Assembly: GCF_000215975.1 (NCBI RefSeq)
Contig: NC_015682.1
Coordinates: 1,550,001 to 1,614,000, forward strand
Direction: 5' to 3'
Source: Thermodesulfobacterium geofontis OPF15
GTDB taxonomy: Bacteria > Desulfobacterota > Thermodesulfobacteria > Thermodesulfobacteriales > Thermodesulfobacteriaceae
Length of the DNA stretch: 64,000 nucleotides
Both the position numbers and the translations under genes were made by a program. Shown piece after piece: positions 11,184-59,913 of the stretch. The notes below the pieces were generated by a model. It was not told the origin of the DNA, searched no databases, and saw nothing but the letters and a program-made list of their open reading frames with translations. Within the stretch, counting starts at the first letter, position 1. Every line of letters starts with the position of its first letter.

Positions 11184-12712
11184 CGAATATCCAATCCAAA
11201 CTCTTTTTTAATTTTTTCAATTTCTTCAGGAGAAAGTATTTCTTGTGCTTCTTTTAATAATGCCTGAGATATTTCTTTTTCTTTATTAAAATAAAGATAA
11301 AGCCATGCAAGAAAAAGTAATGTTTCTCCATCTCTTTCTTTAAGAGTAAGAACATCTTTTAAATATTTAAATGCTTTTTTATATTCCTTTTTATAAAAAT
11401 AAAATTTTCCAAGATAAATTCTTTCTTTTAAAGAAAGGTTTTTTAGTGATGTTAGAAAATCTCCTAACTCTTCATATTCTTCAAAATCCCATAAATATTT
11501 TATCAAAGCTTCTCTAAAAACATTATTTTCCGGATCTAAAAGATGGGCTTTATAAAAATGATATTTTGCCTCTTCTTTTTTCTCCTTTTTTAGATAAATT
11601 AAAGCAAGGTTGTAATGAATTAAAGGGTCCTCTTTTTTACAACTACAAAGCTCTTTTTTTAAAATTTTTTCTGCCCTATCAAGTTCTCCAAAAGTATAAT
11701 AAATAGCCGATTCACTTAAGGCTAATTCAACTGGTTGTTTAGTATAATCTCTTGAAAGTAGATAATATTTAAGAGCTTTACCAAGGTCTTTCCATTCATA
11801 ATAAAGATCCCCTATTACATGATAGGTAAAACCCTCAAAAACTTTTATATTTATTTGATTAACTCTTTTTGCATGTTCATAAGCTCCTATGAGAAAAATT
11901 AAAGGAGTTGAACCTTTATCTTTAAATTTCCCCCAAACATCCCAAGACAAAACCCCTGTTTTAGTTGAATTTTCTTTATATAAAGAAGTTATTTTATTTA
12001 AATCTAAATTTTTAACCAAAAAGAGACTATTTTCTCCTTCAAGTTCTTTTATTATTTTTGCTCCTACCTTTTTCAAATCTTCTTTTATGTCCCTTTTCGA
12101 AGATAAAATTAGAACCCCCTCTTTTATTTTTAAAAATTTATTTGTTATTTCTGAGAGTTTATTTACTTCTAAGGTAGGTAAATAATTTTCCAAAGATTTC
12201 AGAGCCTTTTGAGAAAGATAAGAAAATTCTAATATTTGGGCAAGTTTTAAATTATTTTTTATATCTTCTTCTGAAAATTCTTTGTAAAAATTTACTTCAA
12301 CAGAAAAAAATCTTACTTTTTTCTTCCATAAATTAATAAGAATTTTAAAGGCATTTCCCCATTCAGAGGGATAAAAATAATAGGTTTCATTAAGTCTTAT
12401 GAAAGGAAACTCAGAAAATATTTTTTTATTTTCAAAATTTTTATAAGGAAAGAAAAATAAATAACCAGATACTTCCCTTTCTTTCAAAACTAAATTTAGC
12501 AATTTATAGGAAAAAAAATTATTTTCTATATTTTCCCATAAAAATCTCTCTGCTAAAAGTAAGGGCAATAAATTCTTAGAAGTTTTATAATTCTTTATAA
12601 GTTCCTCAGTAGAATACCTAAAAATTTCTTTAAAGTTTATTTCTTTGAAAATTTCAAGATTTTGTAAATATGGAATAAACCAGTGTATATTAGGAGGTAT
12701 ATTTTTTATCAT
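11180..12712 (-). CDS. Tetratricopeptide-repeat protein of unknown function
   Basis: The protein has about 510 residues. The N-terminal two thirds resemble no family I know. The C-terminal part (about 320-490) carries several degenerate TPRs, for example YHVIGDLYYEWKDLGKALKY, IHYNLALIYLKKEKKEEAKY and IYLGKFYFYKKEYKKAFKYL. TPRs mediate protein-protein contacts. There is no signal peptide, so it is probably cytoplasmic. I use the ATG at 12710-12712. A TTG five codons earlier (12725-12727) is also open, and in both cases the start lies inside the end of selA, an overlap of 23 or 38 bases. Confidence 0.7.
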   Translation of the reverse strand: MIKNIPPNIHWFIPYLQNLEIFKEINFKEIFRYSTEELIKNYKTSKNLLPLLLAERFLWENIENNFFSYKLLNLVLKEREVSGYLFFFPYKNFENKKIFSEFPFIRLNETYYFYPSEWGNAFKILINLWKKKVRFFSVEVNFYKEFSEEDIKNNLKLAQILEFSYLSQKALKSLENYLPTLEVNKLSEITNKFLKIKEGVLILSSKRDIKEDLKKVGAKIIKELEGENSLFLVKNLDLNKITSLYKENSTKTGVLSWDVWGKFKDKGSTPLIFLIGAYEHAKRVNQINIKVFEGFTYHVIGDLYYEWKDLGKALKYYLLSRDYTKQPVELALSESAIYYTFGELDRAEKILKKELCSCKKEDPLIHYNLALIYLKKEKKEEAKYHFYKAHLLDPENNVFREALIKYLWDFEEYEELGDFLTSLKNLSLKERIYLGKFYFYKKEYKKAFKYLKDVLTLKERDGETLLFLAWLYLYFNKEKEISQALLKEAQEILSPEEIEKIKKEFGLDIR

Positions 12713-14069
12713 TTCCAAACTTTTCAAATGCGGAAATTATTTCTTTATAGTCCTCATCAAAAAGACACCTTACGTCAATTAAAAGTCTTTCTTCTTCTAT
12801 TCTTGTTATTATAGGAGGTTCATTTTCTCTCAGAATTTTTTGTAAGTTTTGGGGAGAAAGGGGAGATTTTACAGCTACTGCATAAGAAATTAAATCTAAA
12901 GTGGGAAGAGCCCCTCCTCCGGTTTTATTGATAGTCTCAATCACTTCAAAATTAAATTCTTTAAGTTTAAGTTTTCTAAGTTTTTTTAAAAGATATTTTG
13001 CTCTTTTCTTCAAAATTTCCTTAGGAGTTAAAATCATTTTAAGTACAGGAATGTGCTCTAAAGCGAGGTTTTCATCTCTATATAATCTTAAAGTTGCTTC
13101 TAAACCAGCTAAGGTTAGCTTATCAATTCTTAAGGCACGATTTAAGGGATTTTTTCTTATTTTTTCTATAAATTCTTTTTTCCCAAGAATAATTCCCGCT
13201 TGAGGACCTCCTAAAAGTTTATCTCCTGAAAAAGTAACAATATCAACCCCTGCCTTCAGAACTTCTTGTACAGTAGGTTCTTTTTTTAATCCATATTTGG
13301 AAAAATCGATAAAACATCCACTCCCAAGATCTTTCATGACTGGAAGTCCAAATTTTTTACCCAGAGTTACCAAATCCTCTACTGAAACTTCTTTAGCAAA
13401 ACCTATTATCTCAAAATTACTTTTATGTACTTTTAAAAGTAAAGCAGTATTTTCATTGATAGCATTTTCATAATCAGATAAATGAGTTTTATTAGTAGTT
13501 CCTACTTCCTTTAAAATACACCCTGCCCATTTCATCACTTCAGGTATTCTAAAAGATCCTCCAATCTCAACAAGCTCTCCTCTTGATACTATAACCTCTT
13601 TTCCATAGGCTAAGGTATTTAAAGAAATTAACACAGCTGCTGCATTGTTATTTACTATTAAAGCACTTTCAGCTTGGGTAATTTCTTTTAATATTTCTTC
13701 TACATGAACATATCTACTTCCTCTTTTCCCTTCCTTTAAATCAAATTCTAAATTGGAATAATATTTCGCTACTTTTGTTATCTCTTCTATCGCTTTTTTA
13801 CAAAGTGGAGCTCTCCCCAAATTAGTATGAATTACTACTCCAGTTGCATTTATCACTCTTTTTAAAGACGGAGTTTCATATTTTTTAAAGACTTCTTTCA
13901 TTAAGTTTTCTAAGTAAGATTCTTCAAGTTTTTGAAGTTCTTTTTTTTGCCATTTTTCTCTTATAATTTGAGCTACTCTTCTTGAAGGTTCTGTAAAATA
14001 AGATATAGGATAATTAGGATAAAGTTTTGAAAATTTTTCTTTTAATTCATTTACTGAAGGAATTCGCAT
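12690..14069 (-). CDS. selA: L-seryl-tRNA(Sec) selenium transferase
   Basis: This PLP enzyme converts Ser-tRNA(Sec) to Sec-tRNA(Sec) with selenophosphate. It has 459 residues, a normal length. The N-terminal domain is RIPSVNELKEKFSKLYPNYP and the core has INATGVVIHTNLGRAPLC. The PLP lysine is K284 in TFSGDKLLGGPQAG. It starts right behind the aminotransferase gene. It implies that the organism makes selenoproteins, so in-frame TGA codons elsewhere in the genome may be sense. selB, selD and tRNA-Sec are not in this window. Confidence 0.95.
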   Translation of the reverse strand: MRIPSVNELKEKFSKLYPNYPISYFTEPSRRVAQIIREKWQKKELQKLEESYLENLMKEVFKKYETPSLKRVINATGVVIHTNLGRAPLCKKAIEEITKVAKYYSNLEFDLKEGKRGSRYVHVEEILKEITQAESALIVNNNAAAVLISLNTLAYGKEVIVSRGELVEIGGSFRIPEVMKWAGCILKEVGTTNKTHLSDYENAINENTALLLKVHKSNFEIIGFAKEVSVEDLVTLGKKFGLPVMKDLGSGCFIDFSKYGLKKEPTVQEVLKAGVDIVTFSGDKLLGGPQAGIILGKKEFIEKIRKNPLNRALRIDKLTLAGLEATLRLYRDENLALEHIPVLKMILTPKEILKKRAKYLLKKLRKLKLKEFNFEVIETINKTGGGALPTLDLISYAVAVKSPLSPQNLQKILRENEPPIITRIEEERLLIDVRCLFDEDYKEIISAFEKFGNDKKYTS

Positions 14070-15272
14070 CTAAGAAATAAGTTTTTTAATAAATCTCTCG
14101 ATTCTTTCTAAAGCTTCTTCAAGGATCTTTTCTTCTGGTAAAAATATAATACGAAAATGTTTAGTTCCTGGTTTCTGTCCGAAACCGCTTCCATGAACTA
14201 CAACTACACCTTCTTCTAAAATTAATTTTTTTGTAAATTCAAGATCATCAATATGAGGAATTTCTAATCTTGGGAAGGCATAAAAAGCTCCTAAAGGTTT
14301 AACACACGAAATGAAGGGTATTTGATTTAATCCCTCCACTAAAATGTCCCTCCTTCTTCTAAGCATTTGAATTACTTCTTTAATATAATGATTTTCATTA
14401 TTTAAAGCAACAGGAATAGCATATTGTAAGGGATGTGGAGCACAAAGACGAGTTCTTGCCAATTTATGAATTGCTTCTATATAATCTTCTAATAAATCTT
14501 TAGGACCAGAAATAATCCCCCAACCTATTCTAAATCCCGGAGCAAAATAATTTTTAGAAAGTCCATTAAAAGTAATTACAGGTACTTCATCACTTAAAGA
14601 TGCTATAGAAACATATTTTAAATTATCCTCTAATATATATTGATCATAGATTTCATCAGAAAGAATTACTAAATTATATTTTTTAGCTATTTCTACTATT
14701 CTCTCTAAGGTTTCTTTTGAATAGATTGCACCTGTTGGATTATTAGGATTTATTATTACAATAGCTCTGGTTTTTTTATCTATTAAAGGTTCAATACTTT
14801 CTATATCTGGTTCCCAGTTTTTATTTTCATCTAATAAATAATATCTTGCCTCTATTCTAAATTTAGAAACAATAGCTTGATATAAAGGATAACAAGGGCA
14901 TGGAAGTAAAATATTTTCTTCGGAATTAACCAAAGCTGAGATAGCAAATTCTATAGCTTCAGATGCTCCTTGAGTAATATAAATATCAACTGGTTTTATA
15001 CCCTTTTTAAGAGCATTAGCTTCTATAGCTTTTATAGCCTCTGGTATACCAGAAGATTCAGAATAGGAATTGTAATTTTTTTGTAAGGCTTTACAAACTG
15101 CCTCAATTATAGATTTAGGAGTTTTAAATCCATATTTTACTGGATCACCAATATTTAAATAAATTAAATCCTTTCCCCGCTTTTTTGCTTCTTCAGAAGC
15201 CTCAACTATATCTCTTATAGCATACTCTACTTGAAGTGTCCTAAAAGCTGGTTTAATTTTATTTTTTCCCAT
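14070..15272 (-). CDS. Class I/II pyridoxal-phosphate aminotransferase (AlaA-like)
   Basis: This is a fold-type I aminotransferase of 400 residues. INPNNPTGAIYSKETLE and the PLP lysine K240 in FNGLSKNYFAPGFRIGW (with R248) are clear, as is the C-terminal substrate arginine region KHFRIIFLPEEK. The N-terminus and the motif IYLNIGDPVKYGF resemble AlaA-type alanine aminotransferases, including archaeal forms. Aspartate or another 2-oxo acid pair cannot be excluded. It is the first gene of the long leftward operon and has a candidate promoter upstream. Confidence 0.9.
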   Translation of the reverse strand: MGKNKIKPAFRTLQVEYAIRDIVEASEEAKKRGKDLIYLNIGDPVKYGFKTPKSIIEAVCKALQKNYNSYSESSGIPEAIKAIEANALKKGIKPVDIYITQGASEAIEFAISALVNSEENILLPCPCYPLYQAIVSKFRIEARYYLLDENKNWEPDIESIEPLIDKKTRAIVIINPNNPTGAIYSKETLERIVEIAKKYNLVILSDEIYDQYILEDNLKYVSIASLSDEVPVITFNGLSKNYFAPGFRIGWGIISGPKDLLEDYIEAIHKLARTRLCAPHPLQYAIPVALNNENHYIKEVIQMLRRRRDILVEGLNQIPFISCVKPLGAFYAFPRLEIPHIDDLEFTKKLILEEGVVVVHGSGFGQKPGTKHFRIIFLPEEKILEEALERIERFIKKLIS

Positions 15273-15424: not shown

Positions 15425-17227
15425 ATGCTTAAGTATAAACCTCTCAGAAAATTTTATACTTTACAAGAAACAGAAGAACCTAATTTATTAAAAGATTTTT
15501 TTCCCTATGTAGAACCTCCAAGAATTTTTTTTGATGGGAAATATATTCCTCCTCAACCTGCAAAAGATTTTTATATTACTGATACCACTTTCAGAGATGG
15601 TCAACAAGCAAGAACTCCTTATACCCCTGAACAAATAGAAACTCTTTATAAATTTTTACACCAATTAAGTGGACCTAAAGGAATAATAAGAAAAACTGAA
15701 TTCTTTTTATATACAAAAAGAGACAGAGAGGCTTTAGAAAGGTGTCTTTCTTTAGGTTATCAATATCCTGAAATTACAGGTTGGATAAGAGCAAAAAAAG
15801 AGGATCTAAAACTTGTTAAAGAGGCGGGGCTTAAAGAAACAGGAATTTTAACTTCCTGTTCTGATTATCATATCTATTTAAAATTAAAAAAAACAAGAAA
15901 AGAAGCTTTAGAGGATTATTTAGCTATAGTGAAAGAAGCTCTTTCCTTAGGAATCAGACCAAGATGTCATTTTGAAGATGTAACCCGTGCAGATATTTAT
16001 GGATTTGTTATCCCCTTTGCTATAGAACTTATGAAATTAAGAGAAGAAAGTAAAATAGATATAAAAATAAGGCTTTGTGATACCTTAGGTGTAGCTGTTC
16101 CATTTCCTGAAGCTTGCTTACCTATAAGTGTTCCTAAATTAATAAGAGCACTTATAGAGGAGGCTGGGGTTCCAGAAACTCTTTTAGAATGGCATGGACA
16201 TAATGATTTTTACAGAGCAGTAATTAATGCTACAACTGCTTGGCTTTATGGTTGTACCTATGTAAATACTTCTCTACTTGGAATAGGAGAAAGAACCGGA
16301 AATACTCCTTTAGAAGCTATGGTTTTTGAATATATATGTTTGAGAGGAACTGCCGACGGAATGGATACCACAGTAATAACAGATATTGTAAACTATTATA
16401 AAAATGTTTTGCATGAAAAAATACCTGTTAGGCAACCTTTTGTAGGAGAAGAATTTAATGCAACCAAAGCAGGTATTCACATTGATGGGATTATTAAAAA
16501 TGAAGAAATTTATAATCCTTTTGATACTTTAAAACTTCTCAAAAGACCTATTCAAATTATTATTACAGATAAAAGTGGAACAGCAGGTATTGCTTATTGG
16601 ATAAATACCCATTTTGGACTTGAAGGGGATAAAAAAATCGATAAAAGACATCCAGGAGTGGCAAAAATTTATAAAAAGATCCTTGAAGAATACGAAAAGG
16701 GAAGGGTTACCCCTATTTCAAATGAAGAAATATATACCTTGGTTAGAAAATATATACCAGAACTTTTTGTATCAGAATTAGACCACTTAAGAGATTATGT
16801 AATAGATCTTATGACCAAGTATATAGAAGATTTAGCCCAAGATCCGAATATAGTCTCTTTAGATCCGCAAAAGATGAAAAGGGTTTTAAAAACTTTTTTA
16901 GAAGATCATCCCTATGTTCAATTTATCTATGTTGTAGATACTGAAGGTAAACCCATTATAGGGCTTACTAATGATTTTGAGTATATTAAAAAATTTGAGG
17001 AACTTCTAAAAACCGAGACTTTTGAAAATAGGGATTGGTTCATAAACCCTATGAAAACTGGAGAAACTTATACTTCTAAATTTTATACCTCAAAAATAAC
17101 CTCTAACCTTTGTATTACTATATCTACGCCTGTTAGAAATAAATATGAGGAAATAATTGGTATTCTTGGAATGGATATAAAATTTGAAGATGTAGTTAAA
17201 ATGGAAAATGGATCCTATGAAGTCTAA
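15425..17227 (+). CDS. Re-type citrate synthase candidate with C-terminal Cache-like domain
   Basis: This 600-residue protein belongs to the HMGL/isopropylmalate-homocitrate synthase superfamily. ITDTTFRDGQQARTPYT (51-67), IRKTEFFLYTKRDREALE, YPEITGWIRA and the metal motif WHGHND with H257 and H259 fit the (R)-citrate synthase branch first described in Clostridium kluyveri. These are often misannotated as isopropylmalate synthase or histone-lysine N-methyltransferase. The expected reaction is oxaloacetate + acetyl-CoA to citrate. After about residue 455 a Cache/PDC-like sensor module follows: FIYVVDTEGKPIIGL, NRDWFINPMKTGETY, ITISTPVRN, IGILGMDIKFED. No membrane segment is present, so the module is cytoplasmic. 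A strong AGGGGG site precedes the ATG. Homocitrate synthase is the main alternative. Confidence 0.8.
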   Translation: MLKYKPLRKFYTLQETEEPNLLKDFFPYVEPPRIFFDGKYIPPQPAKDFYITDTTFRDGQQARTPYTPEQIETLYKFLHQLSGPKGIIRKTEFFLYTKRDREALERCLSLGYQYPEITGWIRAKKEDLKLVKEAGLKETGILTSCSDYHIYLKLKKTRKEALEDYLAIVKEALSLGIRPRCHFEDVTRADIYGFVIPFAIELMKLREESKIDIKIRLCDTLGVAVPFPEACLPISVPKLIRALIEEAGVPETLLEWHGHNDFYRAVINATTAWLYGCTYVNTSLLGIGERTGNTPLEAMVFEYICLRGTADGMDTTVITDIVNYYKNVLHEKIPVRQPFVGEEFNATKAGIHIDGIIKNEEIYNPFDTLKLLKRPIQIIITDKSGTAGIAYWINTHFGLEGDKKIDKRHPGVAKIYKKILEEYEKGRVTPISNEEIYTLVRKYIPELFVSELDHLRDYVIDLMTKYIEDLAQDPNIVSLDPQKMKRVLKTFLEDHPYVQFIYVVDTEGKPIIGLTNDFEYIKKFEELLKTETFENRDWFINPMKTGETYTSKFYTSKITSNLCITISTPVRNKYEEIIGILGMDIKFEDVVKMENGSYEV

Positions 17228-18440
17228 AATTTTTTTTGTTTTTCTATTTTTAGTTATTCTTTTTAAATATTCTTTTTGTGAAGAAATACCTACCATTACT
17301 GTAGAACCAACCTCTTTTAGTAAAACTATAATAAGAATTCCTGATTTTGAGGGAGATAAAAACCTTTCTGCTCAACTAACCCCTCTTTTAAGAAAACTTC
17401 TAAACTACCATCTATTTGTTTTAGCCTTAAAAAATCCTCCTCTTCCAAACTATCCTTCTAAGGAATATTATTTAGTAGGAAATGTAGAAAAAAAGGGAAA
17501 CGAAATTTTTATTAAAGCTGAATTAAGAGATACTCTGGAAAATAAAATCCTAAAAACTTATAAAATTTCTGGTTCTTCAGATTATCCACAAACTTTAATT
17601 TATGCTCTTTGTGATAAATTGATAGAAAGTATTTCCCATTATAAAGGAATTGCTTTTACAAAAATTGTTTTTGTAAAAAGAACCTCTAAAGGAGATAAAC
17701 TTTATGTAGCTGATTTTTCAAAAGAAAATCCTCGCCTTTTAAGATCAGCACCTCTTATACTTTTCCCAAAATTTTCTAAAAGCGGAAATAAACTTGCCTA
17801 TCTTGTTTATGAAGAAAATAGATATTTTTTAGAAATTTATAATTTGAAAGATTCAACAAAAGAAAAATTTACTATCAAGGGGATCTGCTCTACACCTGTA
17901 TGGTTCCCAAATGATAAAGAATTAGTTATTACTGCGGAAGAAGGACAAGAAATGGTGCTCTATCGTTTTAATACAGAAACAAAAGAATTAACTCCCTTAA
18001 TCAAGGGAAGGGGTATTCTACAGGCAGGAAGTGTTTCTCCTGGGGGAAATTTTTTAGCTTATGTATATGGGGAGAAAGCAGGAAATCCTCAAATTTATCT
18101 TTTAGATTTAGAAACTTTAAAACCTTATAAAATCCCTCAAAAAAGAATTTACAATACTTCTCCAAGATTTTCTCCAAAAGGAGAATACCTCCTTTTTCTC
18201 TCAAAAGGAGGTGGATTATCTTCAATTAATCTTTATAACTTAAAAACAAAAGAACAAAAAGAAATTAAATTCTCAGGCAATCTTGAAGACCCTGCCTTTT
18301 CTCCTACAGGAGATTATCTTATAGCTTTTGGAGAAGGAAAAGAAGGAAAGGGATTATATTTAATTCATTTAGATTCTTCACTAACTTATCTTTACCTTTC
18401 TGGAAGTAATTTTATCTTTCCTGACTGGGCTGAATTATAG
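17217..18440 (+). CDS. tolB: TolB-like periplasmic beta-propeller protein
   Basis: This is a Tol-Pal system periplasmic protein of about 407 residues. A signal peptide (MKSKIFFVFLFLVILFKYSF) comes first, then an alpha/beta amino-terminal domain (to about 145). A six-bladed propeller follows with WD40-like TolB repeats such as FPKFSKSGNKLAYLVYEENR, TPVWFPNDKELVIT, GSVSPGGNFLAYVYG, SPRFSPKGEYLLFLSKGG and DPAFSPTGDYLIAFG. The start overlaps the citrate synthase 3' end; ATGs at 17208 and 17217 are both open, and I prefer 17217 because the signal peptide begins there. No tolQ, tolR or pal is adjacent. The 3' end overlaps convergent flgL by 6 bases. Confidence 0.85.
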   Translation: MKSKIFFVFLFLVILFKYSFCEEIPTITVEPTSFSKTIIRIPDFEGDKNLSAQLTPLLRKLLNYHLFVLALKNPPLPNYPSKEYYLVGNVEKKGNEIFIKAELRDTLENKILKTYKISGSSDYPQTLIYALCDKLIESISHYKGIAFTKIVFVKRTSKGDKLYVADFSKENPRLLRSAPLILFPKFSKSGNKLAYLVYEENRYFLEIYNLKDSTKEKFTIKGICSTPVWFPNDKELVITAEEGQEMVLYRFNTETKELTPLIKGRGILQAGSVSPGGNFLAYVYGEKAGNPQIYLLDLETLKPYKIPQKRIYNTSPRFSPKGEYLLFLSKGGGLSSINLYNLKTKEQKEIKFSGNLEDPAFSPTGDYLIAFGEGKEGKGLYLIHLDSSLTYLYLSGSNFIFPDWAEL

Positions 18441-42235: not shown

Positions 42236-44173
42236 ATGGGATTAACTCTTACTCATAAAATCCTTGAAAGTCATTTAGTATCTGGGAAACTTGCCCCGGG
42301 AGAAGAGATCGCTATAAAAATAGACCAAACATTAACTCAGGATGCAACAGGAACTATGGCTTATCTTGAATTTGAAGCTATAGGAATTAATAGAGTTAAA
42401 ACGGAACTTTCTGTTTCTTATGTAGATCATAATATTTTACAAACAGATTTTAAAAATGCAGATGACCATAGATTTCTTTTAAGTATTGCTAAAAGATATG
42501 GAATATGGTTTTCCAAACCAGGAAATGGCATATGTCACCAGGTTCATTTAGAAAGATTTGCAAAGCCTGGAAAAACACTTCTTGGCTCTGATAGTCATAC
42601 TCCTACTGCTGGCGGATGCGGGATGATTGCTATAGGCGCAGGTGGGCTTGATGTAGCTATGGCTATGGCAGAATATCCTTTCTATTTAAAAATGCCTAAA
42701 ATTGTAGGAGTTTATTTATATGGAAAACTTCAGCCCTGGGTTTCTGCAAGAGATGTAGCTCTTTATTTACTTTCTAAGCTTACAGTAAAAGGTGGAAGAA
42801 ATAAAATTTTAGAATATTTTGGTCCAGGGATTAAAACTCTTACTGTTCCTGAAAGAGCAACTATATGTAATCTTGGAACTGAAACCGGGGCAACAACAAG
42901 TATCTTTCCCTCTGATGAATTAACTTTTTTTTGGTTAAAAGCCCAAAATAGAGAAGAAGATTATATAGAACTTAAACCTGATGAAGATGCTCAATATGAT
43001 GAAATTATTGAAATTGATCTTTCAAAAATTGAACCTCTCTGTGCCTGTCCCTCCTCTCCTGATAATGTTAAAAAAGTTGCTGAAGAAGCTGGAAAACCGG
43101 TAGCTCAAGTAATTATAGGCTCTTGTGCTAATTCATCTTTAAAAGATCTTCTAATAGTTTCAAAAATCCTTGAAAATCATAAGGTTCATCCAGATGTTTC
43201 TTTTGAAATTAACCCAGGTTCTATTCAGGTTTTAGAAAATTTAGTAGCCCTTTCTGCATTTAAAAACCTTTTAAAAGCTGGTGCTCGTATTCATCAATGT
43301 GGATGCCTTGGATGTATAGGAATGGGACAAGCTCCTCCTACTAATTCTATTTCCTTAAGAACTTTTACCAGAAATTTCCCAGGAAGATCAGGAACCTCAC
43401 CTGACTTTATATATCTTGTTTCTCCCGAAACAGCCACTGCATCAGCTATAAGAGGAGTAATAACTGATCCGAGAGAATTAGGAGATTATCCTGAAATTAT
43501 AATCCCGGAAAAATTTATTATAAATGATTCAATGCTTATTCCACCTTTACCAGAAGAGGAAGCTCAAAAAGTAGAAATTATAAGAGGACCTAATATTGTT
43601 CCCCTCCCACCCTTTGATCCACTTCCTGAAAACTTAGAAGGGATTTTTCTTTTAAAAGTGGGAGATAATATTACTACCGATCATATAATGCCTGCAGGTG
43701 CTCAGATTTTACCTTTAAGAAGTAATCTTCCTGCTATAAGTGAATATGTATATAAAAACTTAGATCCTGAATTTTCTAAAAAAGCTTTAGAAATAAAAAA
43801 TAAAGGTTTAACTATAGGAATTGTAGGTGGAGAAAATTACGGACAAGGTTCTTCAAGAGAACATGCAGCTCTTGCCCCAAGATATTTAGGGGTAAGAATA
43901 AAACTTGCTAAAAGTTTTGCAAGAATTCATAGAAGTAATCTTATAAATTTTGGCATACTCCCTCTTGTTTTTGAAAAAAAAGAAGATTATAACCAAATTG
44001 AACAGGGAGATGTTTTCTTTATAAAAGATATTAGGAAGGCTCTTTTAGAAGGAGAAAAAAAGATAAAAATAATTATTAAAGGTAAAGGAGAAATATCAGT
44101 AATTTTAGATCTAAGTGAAAGAGAGAGAAATTCTGTTCTTGCAGGATCTCTTTTAAATTTAGCAAAAAAATAA
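42236..44173 (+). CDS. acn: Aconitate hydratase, Aquifex type
   Basis: This isomerises citrate and isocitrate via cis-aconitate with a [4Fe-4S] cluster. At 645 residues it is shorter than AcnA/AcnB and fits the putative Aquifex-type group. The cluster ligands are C297 (IIGSCANSSL) and C357/C360 (HQCGCLGCIGMGQAPPTNS). LLGSDSHTPTAGGCGMIAIG is near residue 116. The C-terminal swivel domain has GDNITTDHIMPAGAQILPLR and ENYGQGSSREHAALAPRYLG. A GGAGG site precedes the ATG. It should act directly after the citrate synthase candidate at 15.4 kb. Confidence 0.95.
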   Translation: MGLTLTHKILESHLVSGKLAPGEEIAIKIDQTLTQDATGTMAYLEFEAIGINRVKTELSVSYVDHNILQTDFKNADDHRFLLSIAKRYGIWFSKPGNGICHQVHLERFAKPGKTLLGSDSHTPTAGGCGMIAIGAGGLDVAMAMAEYPFYLKMPKIVGVYLYGKLQPWVSARDVALYLLSKLTVKGGRNKILEYFGPGIKTLTVPERATICNLGTETGATTSIFPSDELTFFWLKAQNREEDYIELKPDEDAQYDEIIEIDLSKIEPLCACPSSPDNVKKVAEEAGKPVAQVIIGSCANSSLKDLLIVSKILENHKVHPDVSFEINPGSIQVLENLVALSAFKNLLKAGARIHQCGCLGCIGMGQAPPTNSISLRTFTRNFPGRSGTSPDFIYLVSPETATASAIRGVITDPRELGDYPEIIIPEKFIINDSMLIPPLPEEEAQKVEIIRGPNIVPLPPFDPLPENLEGIFLLKVGDNITTDHIMPAGAQILPLRSNLPAISEYVYKNLDPEFSKKALEIKNKGLTIGIVGGENYGQGSSREHAALAPRYLGVRIKLAKSFARIHRSNLINFGILPLVFEKKEDYNQIEQGDVFFIKDIRKALLEGEKKIKIIIKGKGEISVILDLSERERNSVLAGSLLNLAKK

Positions 44174-56558: not shown

Positions 56559-56635
56559 GCGGGCGTAGCTCAGCCTGGTAGAGCGACAGCTTGCCATGCT
56601 GTAGGTCGCGGGTTCGAATCCCGTCGCCCGCTCCA
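56559..56635 (+). tRNA. tRNA-Gly (anticodon GCC)
   Basis: This is a full cloverleaf: acceptor GCGGGCG/CGCCCGC, D arm with AGCTCAGCCTGGTAGAGC, anticodon stem ACAGC/GCTGT around the loop TTGCCAT (anticodon GCC), and T arm GCGGGTTCGAATCCCGT. The 3' CCA is encoded. A short palindrome (56638-56654) and then the UPF0173 gene follow on the same strand after 24 bases. Confidence 0.97.
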
Positions 56636-56659
56636 TTTTATCTTTAAAAGATAATATAA

Positions 56660-57346
56660 ATGAAAATAACCTTTTACGGACATTCTTGTTTTAAAATTAT
56701 AACTGAGGAAGGTAAAAAAATACTCATAGATCCTTGGATAAGTAACCCTTTAGCTCCAAAAAATGTTGATCTTGGTCCCTACGATTTTATCTTAATAACT
56801 CATGCTCATGGAGACCATCTTGGAGATGCTCTTAAACTTGCAAGAACAGCTGTTACAGAAGTAATTGCTATTCATGAGATACATCAATATTTACTTAAAC
56901 AAGGGATCCCTAAGGTAACAGGAATGAATATCGGTGGGACTTATAAAGTAAATAATTTAAAATTTACTATGGTCCCTGCTCTACATAGTTCTTCATTTCC
57001 TGATGGCAGTTATGGAGGAAGTGCTTGTGGATTTATAATAACCTTAGAAAATGGGACTTCTATTTATCACGCAGGAGACACAGGATTGTTCTATGATATG
57101 AAATTAATTGGAGAACTTTACTCTCCTAAGGTAGCTTTTCTCCCAATAGGAGATCACTATGTAATGGGACCTAAAGAGGCTGCTAAAGCTTGTGATCTTA
57201 TAAGACCTGAAATTGTAATCCCTATGCACTATGAAACCTTTCCCATTCTTACAGGAGATATAGAAACTTTTGAAAGGGAATTAAAAAAATATAATATTCC
57301 TACTGTTCTTATTGTTCCAAAAATAGGAGAAGAGATTACCATTTAA
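56660..57346 (+). CDS. UPF0173-family metal-dependent hydrolase
   Basis: This 228-residue metallo-beta-lactamase-fold protein of the UPF0173 (YtkL-like) group has metal ligands H48, H50, D52 and H53 (THAHGDHLGD). Further ligands are in VPALHSSS, HAGDTGLFYDM and PMHYETFPIL, near the C-terminus. The substrate of the family is unknown. It begins 24 bases after tRNA-Gly with no ribosome binding site and no promoter of its own in the gap, so it is probably read from the tRNA promoter. Confidence 0.92.
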   Translation: MKITFYGHSCFKIITEEGKKILIDPWISNPLAPKNVDLGPYDFILITHAHGDHLGDALKLARTAVTEVIAIHEIHQYLLKQGIPKVTGMNIGGTYKVNNLKFTMVPALHSSSFPDGSYGGSACGFIITLENGTSIYHAGDTGLFYDMKLIGELYSPKVAFLPIGDHYVMGPKEAAKACDLIRPEIVIPMHYETFPILTGDIETFERELKKYNIPTVLIVPKIGEEITI

Positions 57347-57347
57347 T

Positions 57348-58061
57348 ATGCCCTTTTTATTTTCTATTTCAGGATATCATAATGCTGGAAAAACAACCCT
57401 TGCTCTTTCTTTATACGAAATCCTTAAAAATAGAGGTTATAAAATTGCCGTTGTAAAATCCTCTAAAGAAAAGGATATTTTTACAGATATACCAGAAAAG
57501 GATACTTGGCTTTATAGAAAAAAAGGGGTTCCTTTAGTTGGATTTTTTCAAGAAAATTTATTTACCCTTTATTTAAACCCTGAAAATTTTGACCTTTCCT
57601 CTTTTAAGGATTGGTATGTTTATTTTCAGTCTCTCTTTTGGAATTTTAATATAGTTATTTTAGAAGGGTTTAAAAACTTTGATATAGTTCAAAAAATTTG
57701 GGTAGTAAAAGAAAAAGATGAAGATTTAAAAAGAATAAAAAGTGAGATAAGAAATTTATTAGGTTTTGTGGTGAAAGATGATTTAGAAAGGTGGGAATCT
57801 CTTTATCCTGAAGAAAAATTTTTTCTTTTTAAAGATTACGAGACTCTTGCAAATTTTATTGAAGAACTTATTAGAAAATATGAGCCAAGAGTTTTACTTA
57901 AAATTAATAACAAAAAAATACCTATGAAAAGTTTTGTGGAGGATGCACTTATATATCCTTTATTAGGATTTATAAAGGTTTTGAAAGAAGTTCCTGATAA
58001 AATTGAAGAGATAGAAATTAAAATTAAGTTAAACAAAAAACTTGACAAAGAAGAGATTTAA
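57348..58061 (+). CDS. mobB: Molybdopterin-guanine dinucleotide biosynthesis protein MobB
   Basis: This is a 237-residue GTP-binding partner of MobA in making the bis-MGD cofactor of enzymes such as formate dehydrogenase. The P-loop GYHNAGKTT is at residues 9-17, followed by LKNRGYKIAVVKSSKE and IVILEGFKN. A C-terminal extension of about 60 residues (PRVLLKINNKKIPMKSFVED) follows, as in several Desulfobacterota MobB proteins to my knowledge. It starts 1 base after the UPF0173 stop. No other molybdenum cofactor gene is nearby. Confidence 0.88.
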   Translation: MPFLFSISGYHNAGKTTLALSLYEILKNRGYKIAVVKSSKEKDIFTDIPEKDTWLYRKKGVPLVGFFQENLFTLYLNPENFDLSSFKDWYVYFQSLFWNFNIVILEGFKNFDIVQKIWVVKEKDEDLKRIKSEIRNLLGFVVKDDLERWESLYPEEKFFLFKDYETLANFIEELIRKYEPRVLLKINNKKIPMKSFVEDALIYPLLGFIKVLKEVPDKIEEIEIKIKLNKKLDKEEI

Positions 58062-58069
58062 TTTATATT
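58042..58069 (+). promoter_or_regulatory. Promoter of the tRNA-Lys/tRNA-Glu unit
   Basis: A perfect TTGACA (58042-58047), a 16-base spacer and TATATT (58064-58069) overlap the last codons of mobB, where they encode LDKEEI. The first tRNA begins 30 bases after the -10 element. Confidence 0.65.
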
Positions 58070-58099
58070 TGTAAACACGATTAATAAAAATTAAAAAAT

Positions 58100-58173
58100 G
58101 GGCCGGTAACTCAGCCAGGCAGAGTACCAGCCTTTTAAGCTGGGAGTCGTAGGTTCGAATCCTACCCGGCCCA
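58100..58173 (+). tRNA. tRNA-Lys (anticodon TTT)
   Basis: Acceptor GGGCCGG/CCGGCCC with discriminator A, D arm AACTCAGCCAGGCAGAGT, anticodon stem CCAGC/GCTGG around CTTTTAA (anticodon TTT), T arm GTAGGTTCGAATCCTAC. CCA is not encoded, so a CCA-adding enzyme is needed. It lies 8 bases before tRNA-Glu. Confidence 0.97.
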
Positions 58174-58181
58174 TAAAAGAT

Positions 58182-58256
58182 GCCCCCATCGTCTAGCCAG
58201 GTCCAGGACACCGGCCTTTCACGCCGGCGACAGGGGTTCAAATCCCCTTGGGGGCG
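58182..58256 (+). tRNA. tRNA-Glu (anticodon TTC)
   Basis: Acceptor GCCCCCA/TGGGGGC with discriminator G, D arm with GTCTAGCCAGGTCCAGGAC, anticodon stem CCGGC/GCCGG around CTTTCAC (anticodon TTC), T arm AGGGGTTCAAATCCCCT. No CCA is encoded. It is processed from the same transcript as tRNA-Lys. A T-rich tract follows, and queC starts 23 bases downstream. Confidence 0.97.
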
Positions 58257-58279
58257 CTTTTTTATTATTTTTATAAACT

Positions 58280-58948
58280 ATGAAAAATGAGCTTGCTATA
58301 GTCCTTTTAAGTGGCGGAATGGATAGCACTGTATGTGCAAGTATTGCTTCCCAAAATTACAGACTCGCTTTTTTACATTTTCAATATGGGCAAAAGGCTC
58401 AAAAAAAAGAATTAGAATGTTTTTATAAATTAATAGAATTTTTTAAACCAGAAAAATTTCAAATTGTTTATCTTCCCTTTTTTAAGGATTTTGGAGGATC
58501 AAGTTTAATTTCAGAAGAACTTGAAATTCCCGAAAAACAAGAAAAAGGTATACCCTCTACTTATGTTCCCTTTAGAAATGGTATTTTTTTAAGTATTGCT
58601 ACTGCCTGGGCTGAGGTAATAGGAGCAAAAAAAATATTTATAGGGGTAAATGAAGTAGATTTTTCTGGATATCCAGATTGTAGGAAAATATTTATAGAAA
58701 AATTTAATCAAGCCATAAATGTAGGAACAAAGCCTGAAACGCAGATTGAAATAGAAACACCTATTATAAATCTTACCAAAAAAGAGATTGTTGAACTTGG
58801 TATAAAACTAAATACCCCCTTTCACTTGACTTGGTCCTGTTATAGAGGTGGTGAAAAGGCTTGTGGAAAATGTGATTCTTGCAACCTTAGGTTAAAAGCC
58901 TTCAAAGAGGCTGGTATTAAAGATCCAATTCTTTATGAAAATGTTTGA
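58280..58948 (+). CDS. queC: 7-cyano-7-deazaguanine synthase
   Basis: This is an ATP-dependent enzyme making preQ0, the precursor of queuosine in tRNA, 222 residues. The PP-loop SGGMDSTV is at 11-18. FHFQYGQKAQKKELE-type and YVPFRNGIFLSIATAWAEV segments are characteristic, and the zinc site is C187, C195, C198 and C201 (CYRGGEKACGKCDSC). It has no ribosome binding site and lies 23 bases after tRNA-Glu. Other que genes are not in the window. Confidence 0.96.
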   Translation: MKNELAIVLLSGGMDSTVCASIASQNYRLAFLHFQYGQKAQKKELECFYKLIEFFKPEKFQIVYLPFFKDFGGSSLISEELEIPEKQEKGIPSTYVPFRNGIFLSIATAWAEVIGAKKIFIGVNEVDFSGYPDCRKIFIEKFNQAINVGTKPETQIEIETPIINLTKKEIVELGIKLNTPFHLTWSCYRGGEKACGKCDSCNLRLKAFKEAGIKDPILYENV

Positions 58949-59309
58949 ATGTAAAAGGTGTGGTTCCTGTTGTAAAGGCGAAAGTACTATTAGTCTTTCT
59001 AAAAGGGATATTTCAAGAATTGCTCAATTTTTAAATCTTTCTGAAGAGGATTTTTTAAATTTATATACTGTAAAAAAAGGAAAATTTAGAATAGAAATGA
59101 GGGTAAAAGATGGGTTTTGTATATTTTTTGATAAAGAAAAAAAACTTTGTAAAATTCATCCTGTTAAACCTGAAAAATGTAAGGAATGGCCTTTAATTTC
59201 TGCTATTTTTGAAGATGAAGAAAATTTTAAAATTATTCAAAATTCTTGCTTAGGTCTAAAAGATTTAAATTGGGAAAAATTAAAATCTTTTAAAAACTTG
59301 CATAAATAA
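58935..59309 (+). CDS. YkgJ-family Cys-rich metal-binding protein
   Basis: This 124-residue protein of the YkgJ/CxxCxxCC family starts with CKRCGSCCKGE and has a second group, CKIHPVKPEKCKEWP, together able to bind zinc or an iron-sulfur cluster. The function of the family is not established. It overlaps queC by 14 bases; a second ATG two codons later (58941) is equally possible. The 50-base gap after it holds the promoter of the PerR-like gene. Confidence 0.85.
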   Translation: MKMFECKRCGSCCKGESTISLSKRDISRIAQFLNLSEEDFLNLYTVKKGKFRIEMRVKDGFCIFFDKEKKLCKIHPVKPEKCKEWPLISAIFEDEENFKIIQNSCLGLKDLNWEKLKSFKNLHK

Positions 59310-59324
59310 AAAAATGTTTTAAAC

Positions 59325-59341
59325 TTATAATAAATTTATAA
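59325..59341. promoter_or_regulatory. PerR-box-like palindrome over the -10 element of the Fur-family gene
   Basis: TTATAAT (59325-59331), AAA, TTTATAA (59335-59341) forms an inverted repeat close to the PerR consensus TTATAATnATTATAA, with a 3-base instead of a 1-base centre. It contains TATAAT (59326-59331), a perfect -10, so binding would block transcription. In AT-rich DNA some chance of coincidence remains. Confidence 0.45.
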
Positions 59342-59359
59342 AAAATTTAGGGAGGATGA

Positions 59360-59788
59360 ATGAAAATGACTGAAGAGAAATTAAAATTTTACAAAAGTTT
59401 AGGATTAAAACTAACTCCTCAAAGATTAGCGATTCTCGAATTTTTGGAAAATAACAAATCCCATCCTTCGGCTGAAGACATTTATAATGCATTAAAACCT
59501 CGTTTCCCAAGTATGTCTTTTGCTACAGTTTATAATACATTAGAAGTACTTACAGAAAAAGGATTAGTAAAGGAAATAAGTGTTGAAAGTACGAGAAAAA
59601 GATTTGATCCTTTTACCCATCCTCATCATCATTTCTTTTGTAAAGCCTGCAAAAAGGTTATAGATATTGAAAACATTAAGGATAATTTAAATATTCCTGA
59701 AGAAATAAAGGATTGTGAAATAACTGAGTATCAAATTATCTTTTTTGGTTTTTGTCCAGAATGTAAGCAAAAACATAAATCCCATTAA
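59360..59788 (+). CDS. perR: Fur-family regulator, PerR-like
   Basis: This 142-residue metal-dependent repressor has an N-terminal winged helix (about 10-85) with LTPQRLAILEFLENNKSHPS and MSFATVYNTLEVLTEKGLVK. The structural zinc site is C94/C97 and C132/C135. The regulatory site ligands are probably H35, D83, H89, H91 and D102. D102 (VIDIEN) corresponds to PerR Asp104, where Fur has Glu, so peroxide sensing is the better guess. GGAGG lies just before the ATG; the ATG at 59366 has the better spacing. A PerR-box-like palindrome covers its promoter. Confidence 0.87.
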   Translation: MKMTEEKLKFYKSLGLKLTPQRLAILEFLENNKSHPSAEDIYNALKPRFPSMSFATVYNTLEVLTEKGLVKEISVESTRKRFDPFTHPHHHFFCKACKKVIDIENIKDNLNIPEEIKDCEITEYQIIFFGFCPECKQKHKSH

Positions 59789-59790
59789 TC

Positions 59791-59819
59791 TTGACAAGAA
59801 ATAAAATTTATATTATTTT
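59791..59819 (+). promoter_or_regulatory. Promoter of the CAU tRNA and nif3-like gene
   Basis: A perfect TTGACA (59791-59796), a 17-base spacer and TATTTT (59814-59819). It begins 3 bases after the stop of the PerR-like gene and ends 20 bases before the tRNA. Confidence 0.6.
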
Positions 59820-59839
59820 ATAAATTTGCAGATAGAAAA

Positions 59840-59913
59840 GGGCCCGTAGCTCAGCTGGTTAGAGCCACCGGCTCATAACCGGAAGGTCCCAGGTTCGAAT
59901 CCTGGCGGGCCCA
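59840..59913 (+). tRNA. tRNA with anticodon CAT (Met or Ile2)
   Basis: Acceptor GGGCCCG/CGGGCCC with discriminator A, D arm AGCTCAGCTGGTTAGAGC, anticodon loop CTCATAA (anticodon CAT), T arm CCAGGTTCGAATCCTGG. It is not the initiator, because position 1-72 is a G-C pair. C4-G69 and C5-G68 would also fit a TilS-modified tRNA-Ile2, so elongator Met and Ile2 stay open. No CCA is encoded. The next gene begins 10 bases after the tRNA. Confidence 0.93.

Follow-up and report, generated by a model that had tools for sequence, protein, structure and literature searches.

A Re-citrate synthase-like enzyme with a cytoplasmic Cache module, a candidate amino-acid sensor, in Thermodesulfobacterium geofontis

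The 64,000-nucleotide stretch of the Thermodesulfobacterium geofontis OPF15 genome analysed here (NC_015682.1, positions 1,550,001 to 1,614,000; hereafter the window) contains a gene whose 600-residue product couples an HMGL-type condensing enzyme, very probably a Re-citrate synthase, to a C-terminal module of the Cache fold. The best explanation of this architecture, to which we give an even chance of being right, is a Re-type citrate synthase with an amino-acid-sensing Cache regulatory module. As judged from sequence comparison, the module would act as a cytoplasmic allosteric amino-acid sensor controlling the entry to 2-oxoglutarate, both its ligand and the direction of control being matters of inference.

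Domain architecture of the fusion protein

The gene and its parts are the following (window coordinates):

15425..17227, + strand: Re-citrate synthase-like gene with C-terminal Cache domain (ATG at 15425, stop at 17227, 600 residues)
15569..16390, + strand: HMGL-type (DRE-TIM) catalytic barrel, residues 49-322 (PF00682, E 6.6e-34; superposition on 6ktq)
15593..15607, + strand: RDGQQ motif, residues 57-61 (five of five residues invariant in a 49-sequence alignment)
16193..16201, + strand: HGH metal-site motif, residues 257-259 (invariant in the 49 sequences)
16391..16774, + strand: post-barrel helical region, residues 323-450 (weak HCS_D2-like stretch at 340-389, below cut-off)
16775..17209, + strand: Cache/PDC module, residues 451-595 (long N-terminal helix and PAS-like fold, one module)
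17030..17032, + strand: R536 codon (PctA R126/KinD R131, the carboxylate-binding arginine)
17036..17041, + strand: W538 and F539 codons (PctA W128 and Y129)
17084..17086, + strand: Y554 codon (PctA Y144)
17174..17176, + strand: D584 codon (PctA D173)

A sequence-only reading of this DNA had proposed the same open reading frame, an HMGL-type, Re-citrate synthase-like body with H257 and H259, and a Cache-type tail marked by the strings VVDTEGKP, NRDWF, ITISTPV and GILGMDI. All of these stand, as does its RDGQQ motif, which occupies residues 57-61 and not 57-60 as given there. In profile searches the tail is recovered above the curated cut-offs by both dCache_1 (PF02743; residues 459-590, E 2.2e-14, 54.1 bits against a cut-off of 45) and MCP-like_PDC_1 (PF22673; residues 485-589, E 1.3e-12, 48.5 bits against 27), and 49 of 49 diverse tails match both families. 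The PF02743 profile is covered only at positions 25-155 of 240, which indicates a single Cache module; the tail is thus not a dCache_1 domain in the full sense of two extracellular modules, and corresponds to the ligand-binding, membrane-distal first half of such domains. It is the sole PF02743 match in the whole T. geofontis genome. Hydropathy predicts no membrane helix (best window 1.22 over the whole chain, 0.63 in the tail), as the sequence-only reading had held, and the module is therefore predicted to be intracellular, in the cytoplasm. A Pfam search of the 600-residue protein gave no match to LeuA_dimer (PF08502), bearing out the claim that the C-terminus is not of the LeuA type.

Structure predictions made with the 49-sequence family alignment agree with these assignments. 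The full chain was predicted with a mean local confidence (pLDDT, predicted local distance difference test) of 92.1 and a predicted template modelling score (pTM) of 0.76, and the tail alone with 92.8 and 0.88. The predicted body superposes best on the Sulfolobus homocitrate synthase 6ktq (Z 35.0, root-mean-square deviation 2.9, 372 aligned residues). The model of the tail has the long N-terminal helix and PAS-like sheet of the Cache fold and superposes best on the sensor domain of KinD (4jgo; Z 16.7, deviation 4.0, 139 aligned residues), followed by WalK, CitA, CtaA, PctC and Tlp3 (Z about 13-16); KinD is also its top Foldseek match (E 4.9e-9).

Phyletic distribution of tail-bearing and tail-less forms

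The tail is found on nearly all relatives of the protein in Thermodesulfobacteriota and in Nitrospirota, and also in loci labelled Omnitrophota, Elusimicrobia, Lentisphaerae, Spirochaetes, Fibrobacteres and Margulisiibacteriota. Its presence on most homologues over several phyla rules out a chance fusion or an assembly artefact. Among the Spirochaetota matches both tail-bearing forms and tail-less forms of about 440-480 residues occur, and two tail-less forms (452 and 460 residues) are found in two genomes of the phylum of T. geofontis itself. Some tail-less homologues are 50-60% identical to the body of the window protein. The tail-less forms rule out a universal structural tail, which the sequence-only reading had named as an objection to its own proposal. 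Because they exist, sometimes alongside a tail-bearing form within one genome, the tail is not essential to the enzyme. Two Spirochaetota genomes, G212 (L137/L160) and G248 (L134/L158), encode one tail-bearing and one tail-less enzyme each and thus hold natural pairs. In a tree of the catalytic bodies the best topologies require 5-6 changes of tail state, despite which a single clade of all tail-less forms is not rejected (approximately unbiased test, p 0.08).

The GTDB family to which the Syntrophaceae locus L054 belongs has the gene in 27 of 51 genomes, with 26 matches running through the tail and one partial, and four sampled relatives have masses of 71-73 kDa. The Re-citrate synthase of Syntrophus aciditrophicus was reportedly purified as a tetramer of 4 x 72 kDa. 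A tail-bearing enzyme may hence already have been purified with its tail unrecognised as a Cache domain, which we take as a lead and not as a test. The Clostridium kluyveri enzyme is said to be about 450 residues long and tail-less; no Bacillota Re-citrate synthases were among the best 80 loci of one scan of genome contigs. Plasmid matches are distant, with at most 36.7% identity among the matches listed; the Deinococcus wulumuqiensis plasmid pDrdI (L168, 1492-2790) carries a tail-less relative at 36.7% identity whose divergent neighbour is a Si-type citrate/2-methylcitrate synthase.

The predicted ligand pocket

We mapped the residues of the tail onto PctA and KinD by profile alignment and assessed their conservation over 66 non-redundant tails. 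R536 aligns with PctA R126 and KinD R131, W538 with PctA W128, F539 with Y129, Y554 with Y144 and D584 with D173; KinD has Ala at the position of D584 and Phe at that of W538. In PctA, D173 contacts the ammonium group of the ligand. Within the site, R126 makes contact with the carboxylate of the ligand, W128 and Y144 form part of the lining, Y129 has a structural role, and D173 counts among the key residues of the motif (PMC10104139); beyond these roles, a replacement of D173 in a purine sensor is described (PMC10104139, PMC11245519). A purine-sensor motif is unlikely for the tail, as McpH has Gly at the D584 position.

These positions are retained in most or all tails: R536 is R in 57 of 66 tails, W538 is W and D584 is D in all 66, F539 is F in 65, and Y554 is Y in 49 and F in 14. 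With Y121 left aside, 53 of the 66 tails show the remaining five-position PctA pattern (R, W, F/Y, Y/F, D). Invariant over this set are W538, S556, L562, T565 and D584; in the 49-sequence alignment G508, W538, S556, L562 and D584 are invariant and T565 nearly so. The four PctA-type contact positions exceed random tail positions in conservation (permutation p 0.0005). The ratio of nonsynonymous to synonymous substitution rates (dN/dS) of the tail is 0.056-0.078 within the genus, where dS was measurable, and the tail is under purifying selection. Mean pairwise identity over the non-redundant set is 41% for the tail against 61% for the body. In four loci (L085, L135, L141 and L142) the position of the carboxylate-binding arginine is S, C or T, which suggests a changed or lost ligand.

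An alpha-amino acid is favoured over a plain carboxylate because D584 is invariant where the pyruvate sensor KinD has Ala. The ligands put forward by the sequence-only reading, citrate, 2-oxoglutarate and acetate, are accordingly not upheld: R536, W538, Y554 and D584 match the amino-acid site of PctA. Allosteric regulation of the citrate branch point, as it proposed, would be plausible. The tail does not carry the full dCache_1AA motif (Y121, R126, W128, Y129, Y144, D173), in that its Y121 position is unconserved; while not a member of that family, it may work like one of its amino-acid sensors.

Several points tell against this interpretation. The existence of tail-less homologues implies that the control is dispensable. 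The amino-acid ligand is itself deduced from the pocket residues, and of these the PctA Y121 position ranks 132 of 143 in conservation and weakens the permutation test to p 0.013 when included. The arginine is lost in a few, mainly spirochaete, tails (S, C or T; others H or K). Moreover, conserved residues such as G508, S556 and T565 are probably shared by Cache domains in general, and structural constraint may account for some of the conservation.

The last of these points, together with the loss of the arginine, would suit a module that is a ligand-free element of dimerisation or stability, and receptor Cache domains are generally known to associate via their N-terminal helix; we consider this rather unlikely, since homologues so similar in the body do without a tail, so that the body does not need one, and conservation at the pocket positions exceeds that of the tail at large. 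A second alternative is that the Cache module of the Re-citrate synthase binds a non-amino carboxylate effector such as 2-oxoglutarate, citrate or pyruvate. KinD, which was solved with pyruvate, is the best structural and second-best profile match, the citrate sensor CitA and the dicarboxylate sensor DctB superpose well on the tail, and the carboxylate-binding arginine is retained in most tails. The invariant acid D584 would, however, be unfavourable beside a plain carboxylate, and there is one basic residue only among the matched positions; this alternative is hence unlikely.

The body as a probable Re-type citrate synthase

D58, H257 and H259, the metal-site aspartate and HxH of the HMGL-type barrel, are invariant in the 49 sequences; the metal role of the HGH motif at 257-259 we take over from the known superfamily. 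The complete 1.63-Mb T. geofontis genome has no match to the Si-citrate synthase family PF00285, and we infer that the gene encodes the only citrate synthase detected there, of the Re type. A survey of 198 genomes of the phylum found a relative of the window protein in 98 and PF00285 in 100: both enzymes in 15, the Re-type only in 83, the Si-type only in 85 and neither in 15 (Fisher p 4e-24, the test counting genomes as independent although they are related). The two types thus nearly exclude each other across these genomes. In a minority of related loci same-direction genes downstream encode an aconitase-family protein (14), isocitrate dehydrogenase (12) or malate dehydrogenase (7). In T. geofontis isocitrate dehydrogenase and aconitase-like genes are likewise present, the latter being the probable next enzyme of the pathway:

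42236..44173, + strand: aconitase-like gene, 645 residues, not adjacent to the synthase gene

Its match to the hacA-family model (genome 1592245-1593474, E 9.1e-100) lies below that model's cut-off. No succinyl-CoA synthetase SucC was found above its model's cut-off in the genome, and 2-oxoglutarate therefore probably goes to glutamate and not round a cycle.

Evidence on the pathway comes from Thermodesulfatator indicus, of the same class, which has a Re-citrate synthase homologue and a split or bifurcated tricarboxylic acid (TCA) pathway with glutamate formed oxidatively (PMC12743299). With [1,2-13C2]acetate its glutamate contained 37.3% of the 13C4 form with C-1 labelled and none of the 13C4 form with C-1 unlabelled (PMC12743299, Table 2). 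By a carbon mapping done here, and not in that paper, this labelling fits Re-type citrate: assuming that oxaloacetate arises from pyruvate carboxylation, label in C1-C4 is expected from Re addition and in C2-C5 from Si addition. A named Thermodesulfatator metagenome-assembled genome (L036) encodes a homologue, 70% identical, that has the tail. The window protein is 56-58% identical to Syntrophaceae homologues.

Citrate is strongly indicated as the product; on the other side, 15 of the 198 genomes have both enzyme types, there is a resemblance of the body to homocitrate and isopropylmalate synthases too, and sequence alone does not prove the product. That the enzyme is a homocitrate or an isopropylmalate/citramalate synthase is very improbable: NifV and LEU1_arch are its best NCBIfam matches, but they lie far below cut-off (148 against 463 bits and 147 against 485), two separate weak relatives in the genome are the LeuA/CimA candidates, and the exclusion of Si-citrate synthase, the gene neighbours and the lack of another detected citrate synthase in the genome speak against it. 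The missing PF08502 and the low equivalog scores tell against membership of the LeuA/isopropylmalate synthases.

Proposed mechanism and comparison with known systems

In the proposed mechanism the body would condense acetyl-CoA and oxaloacetate to citrate; aconitase and isocitrate dehydrogenase would then turn this into 2-oxoglutarate, and glutamate would follow. A small amino acid would occupy the Cache pocket, with its alpha-carboxylate to R536, its ammonium group to D584 and W538 and Y554 as aromatic lining, and its binding would alter activity via the helix joining the Cache module to the barrel. We hold ligand binding by the module, and an amino acid as that ligand, with moderate confidence on the pocket residues. 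Leucine inhibits LeuA and lysine inhibits homocitrate synthase; more generally, condensing enzymes of this superfamily are inhibited by end-product amino acids, several of them via C-terminal domains of other folds. By analogy, feedback inhibition by the glutamate family would be the likeliest form of control, a suggestion that we make with weaker confidence. The second candidate ligand would be aspartate. It derives from oxaloacetate and is the amino acid of that branch, and an aspartyl-tRNA synthetase-like gene, so called by reading, lies upstream in the same direction, adjoining or nearly so, in 58 related loci (e.g. L043, L054 and L062). This arrangement may reflect only ancient gene order. 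In 20 loci the next gene further up also resembles a tRNA synthetase and is probably hisS.

The proposed reaction and the superfamily are those of the Re-citrate synthases (EC 2.3.3.3) of C. kluyveri and S. aciditrophicus. LeuA and the Sulfolobus homocitrate synthase are, in our reading, alike in joining a condensing enzyme of the superfamily to a C-terminal effector domain: LeuA has a leucine domain and the Sulfolobus enzyme, going by the title of PDB 6ktq, a RAM domain. Unlike LeuA_dimer or RAM, the effector domain of the window protein has the Cache fold. The tail resembles the amino-acid sensors PctA (profile E 1.6e-7) and Tlp3 (1.2e-11), with counterparts of PctA R126, W128, the aromatic 129, Y144 and D173, yet it differs from PctA in being a single module, cytoplasmic by prediction, enzyme-fused and unconserved at Y121. 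Bacillus subtilis KinD is closest in fold; in contrast to the tail it belongs to a receptor, lies outside the cell and has pyruvate bound.

Prokaryotes are considered to have in Cache domains their main extracellular sensors; the one described here sits, by prediction, intracellularly on a metabolic enzyme and is the only dCache_1 detected in its genome. Re-citrate synthases are known, and intracellular Cache domains are known but uncommon (PMC4822843). The intracellular precedents YkuI_C and Diacid_rec are reported with signalling output domains and not with a metabolic enzyme (PMC4822843); YkuI_C is also matched by 15 of the 49 tails. We found no publication on a Cache domain attached to a citrate synthase, an isopropylmalate synthase or another central metabolic enzyme in the open-access literature, key biochemical papers lying outside that coverage. 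Tentatively, and leaning slightly to the doubtful side, we propose that a Cache domain was taken into the cytoplasm to serve, on an enzyme of central carbon metabolism, as an allosteric switch responding to amino acids, giving end-product control at citrate formation in many anaerobic lineages. Such control would parallel that by the LeuA regulatory domain and yet be structurally unrelated to it, and amino-acid sensing would explain how the entry to 2-oxoglutarate and glutamate is controlled in anaerobes with a split TCA pathway. The natural pairs of tail-bearing and tail-less enzymes make amino-acid sensing directly testable.

Genomic neighbourhood

Downstream of the synthase lies a TolB-like gene (17208-18440) that scores below the TolB cut-off. 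As listed, it starts within the last 20 bases of the synthase gene; its true start may be later. Divergent from the synthase and 152 bases upstream of it is an aminotransferase gene (14070-15272, - strand), whose closest model, alanine aminotransferase, it matches below cut-off. Next to this, at 12690-14069 (- strand), a protein reads like SelA, selenocysteine synthase, by reading alone. Four tRNA genes were identified with Rfam on the + strand at 56559-59913.
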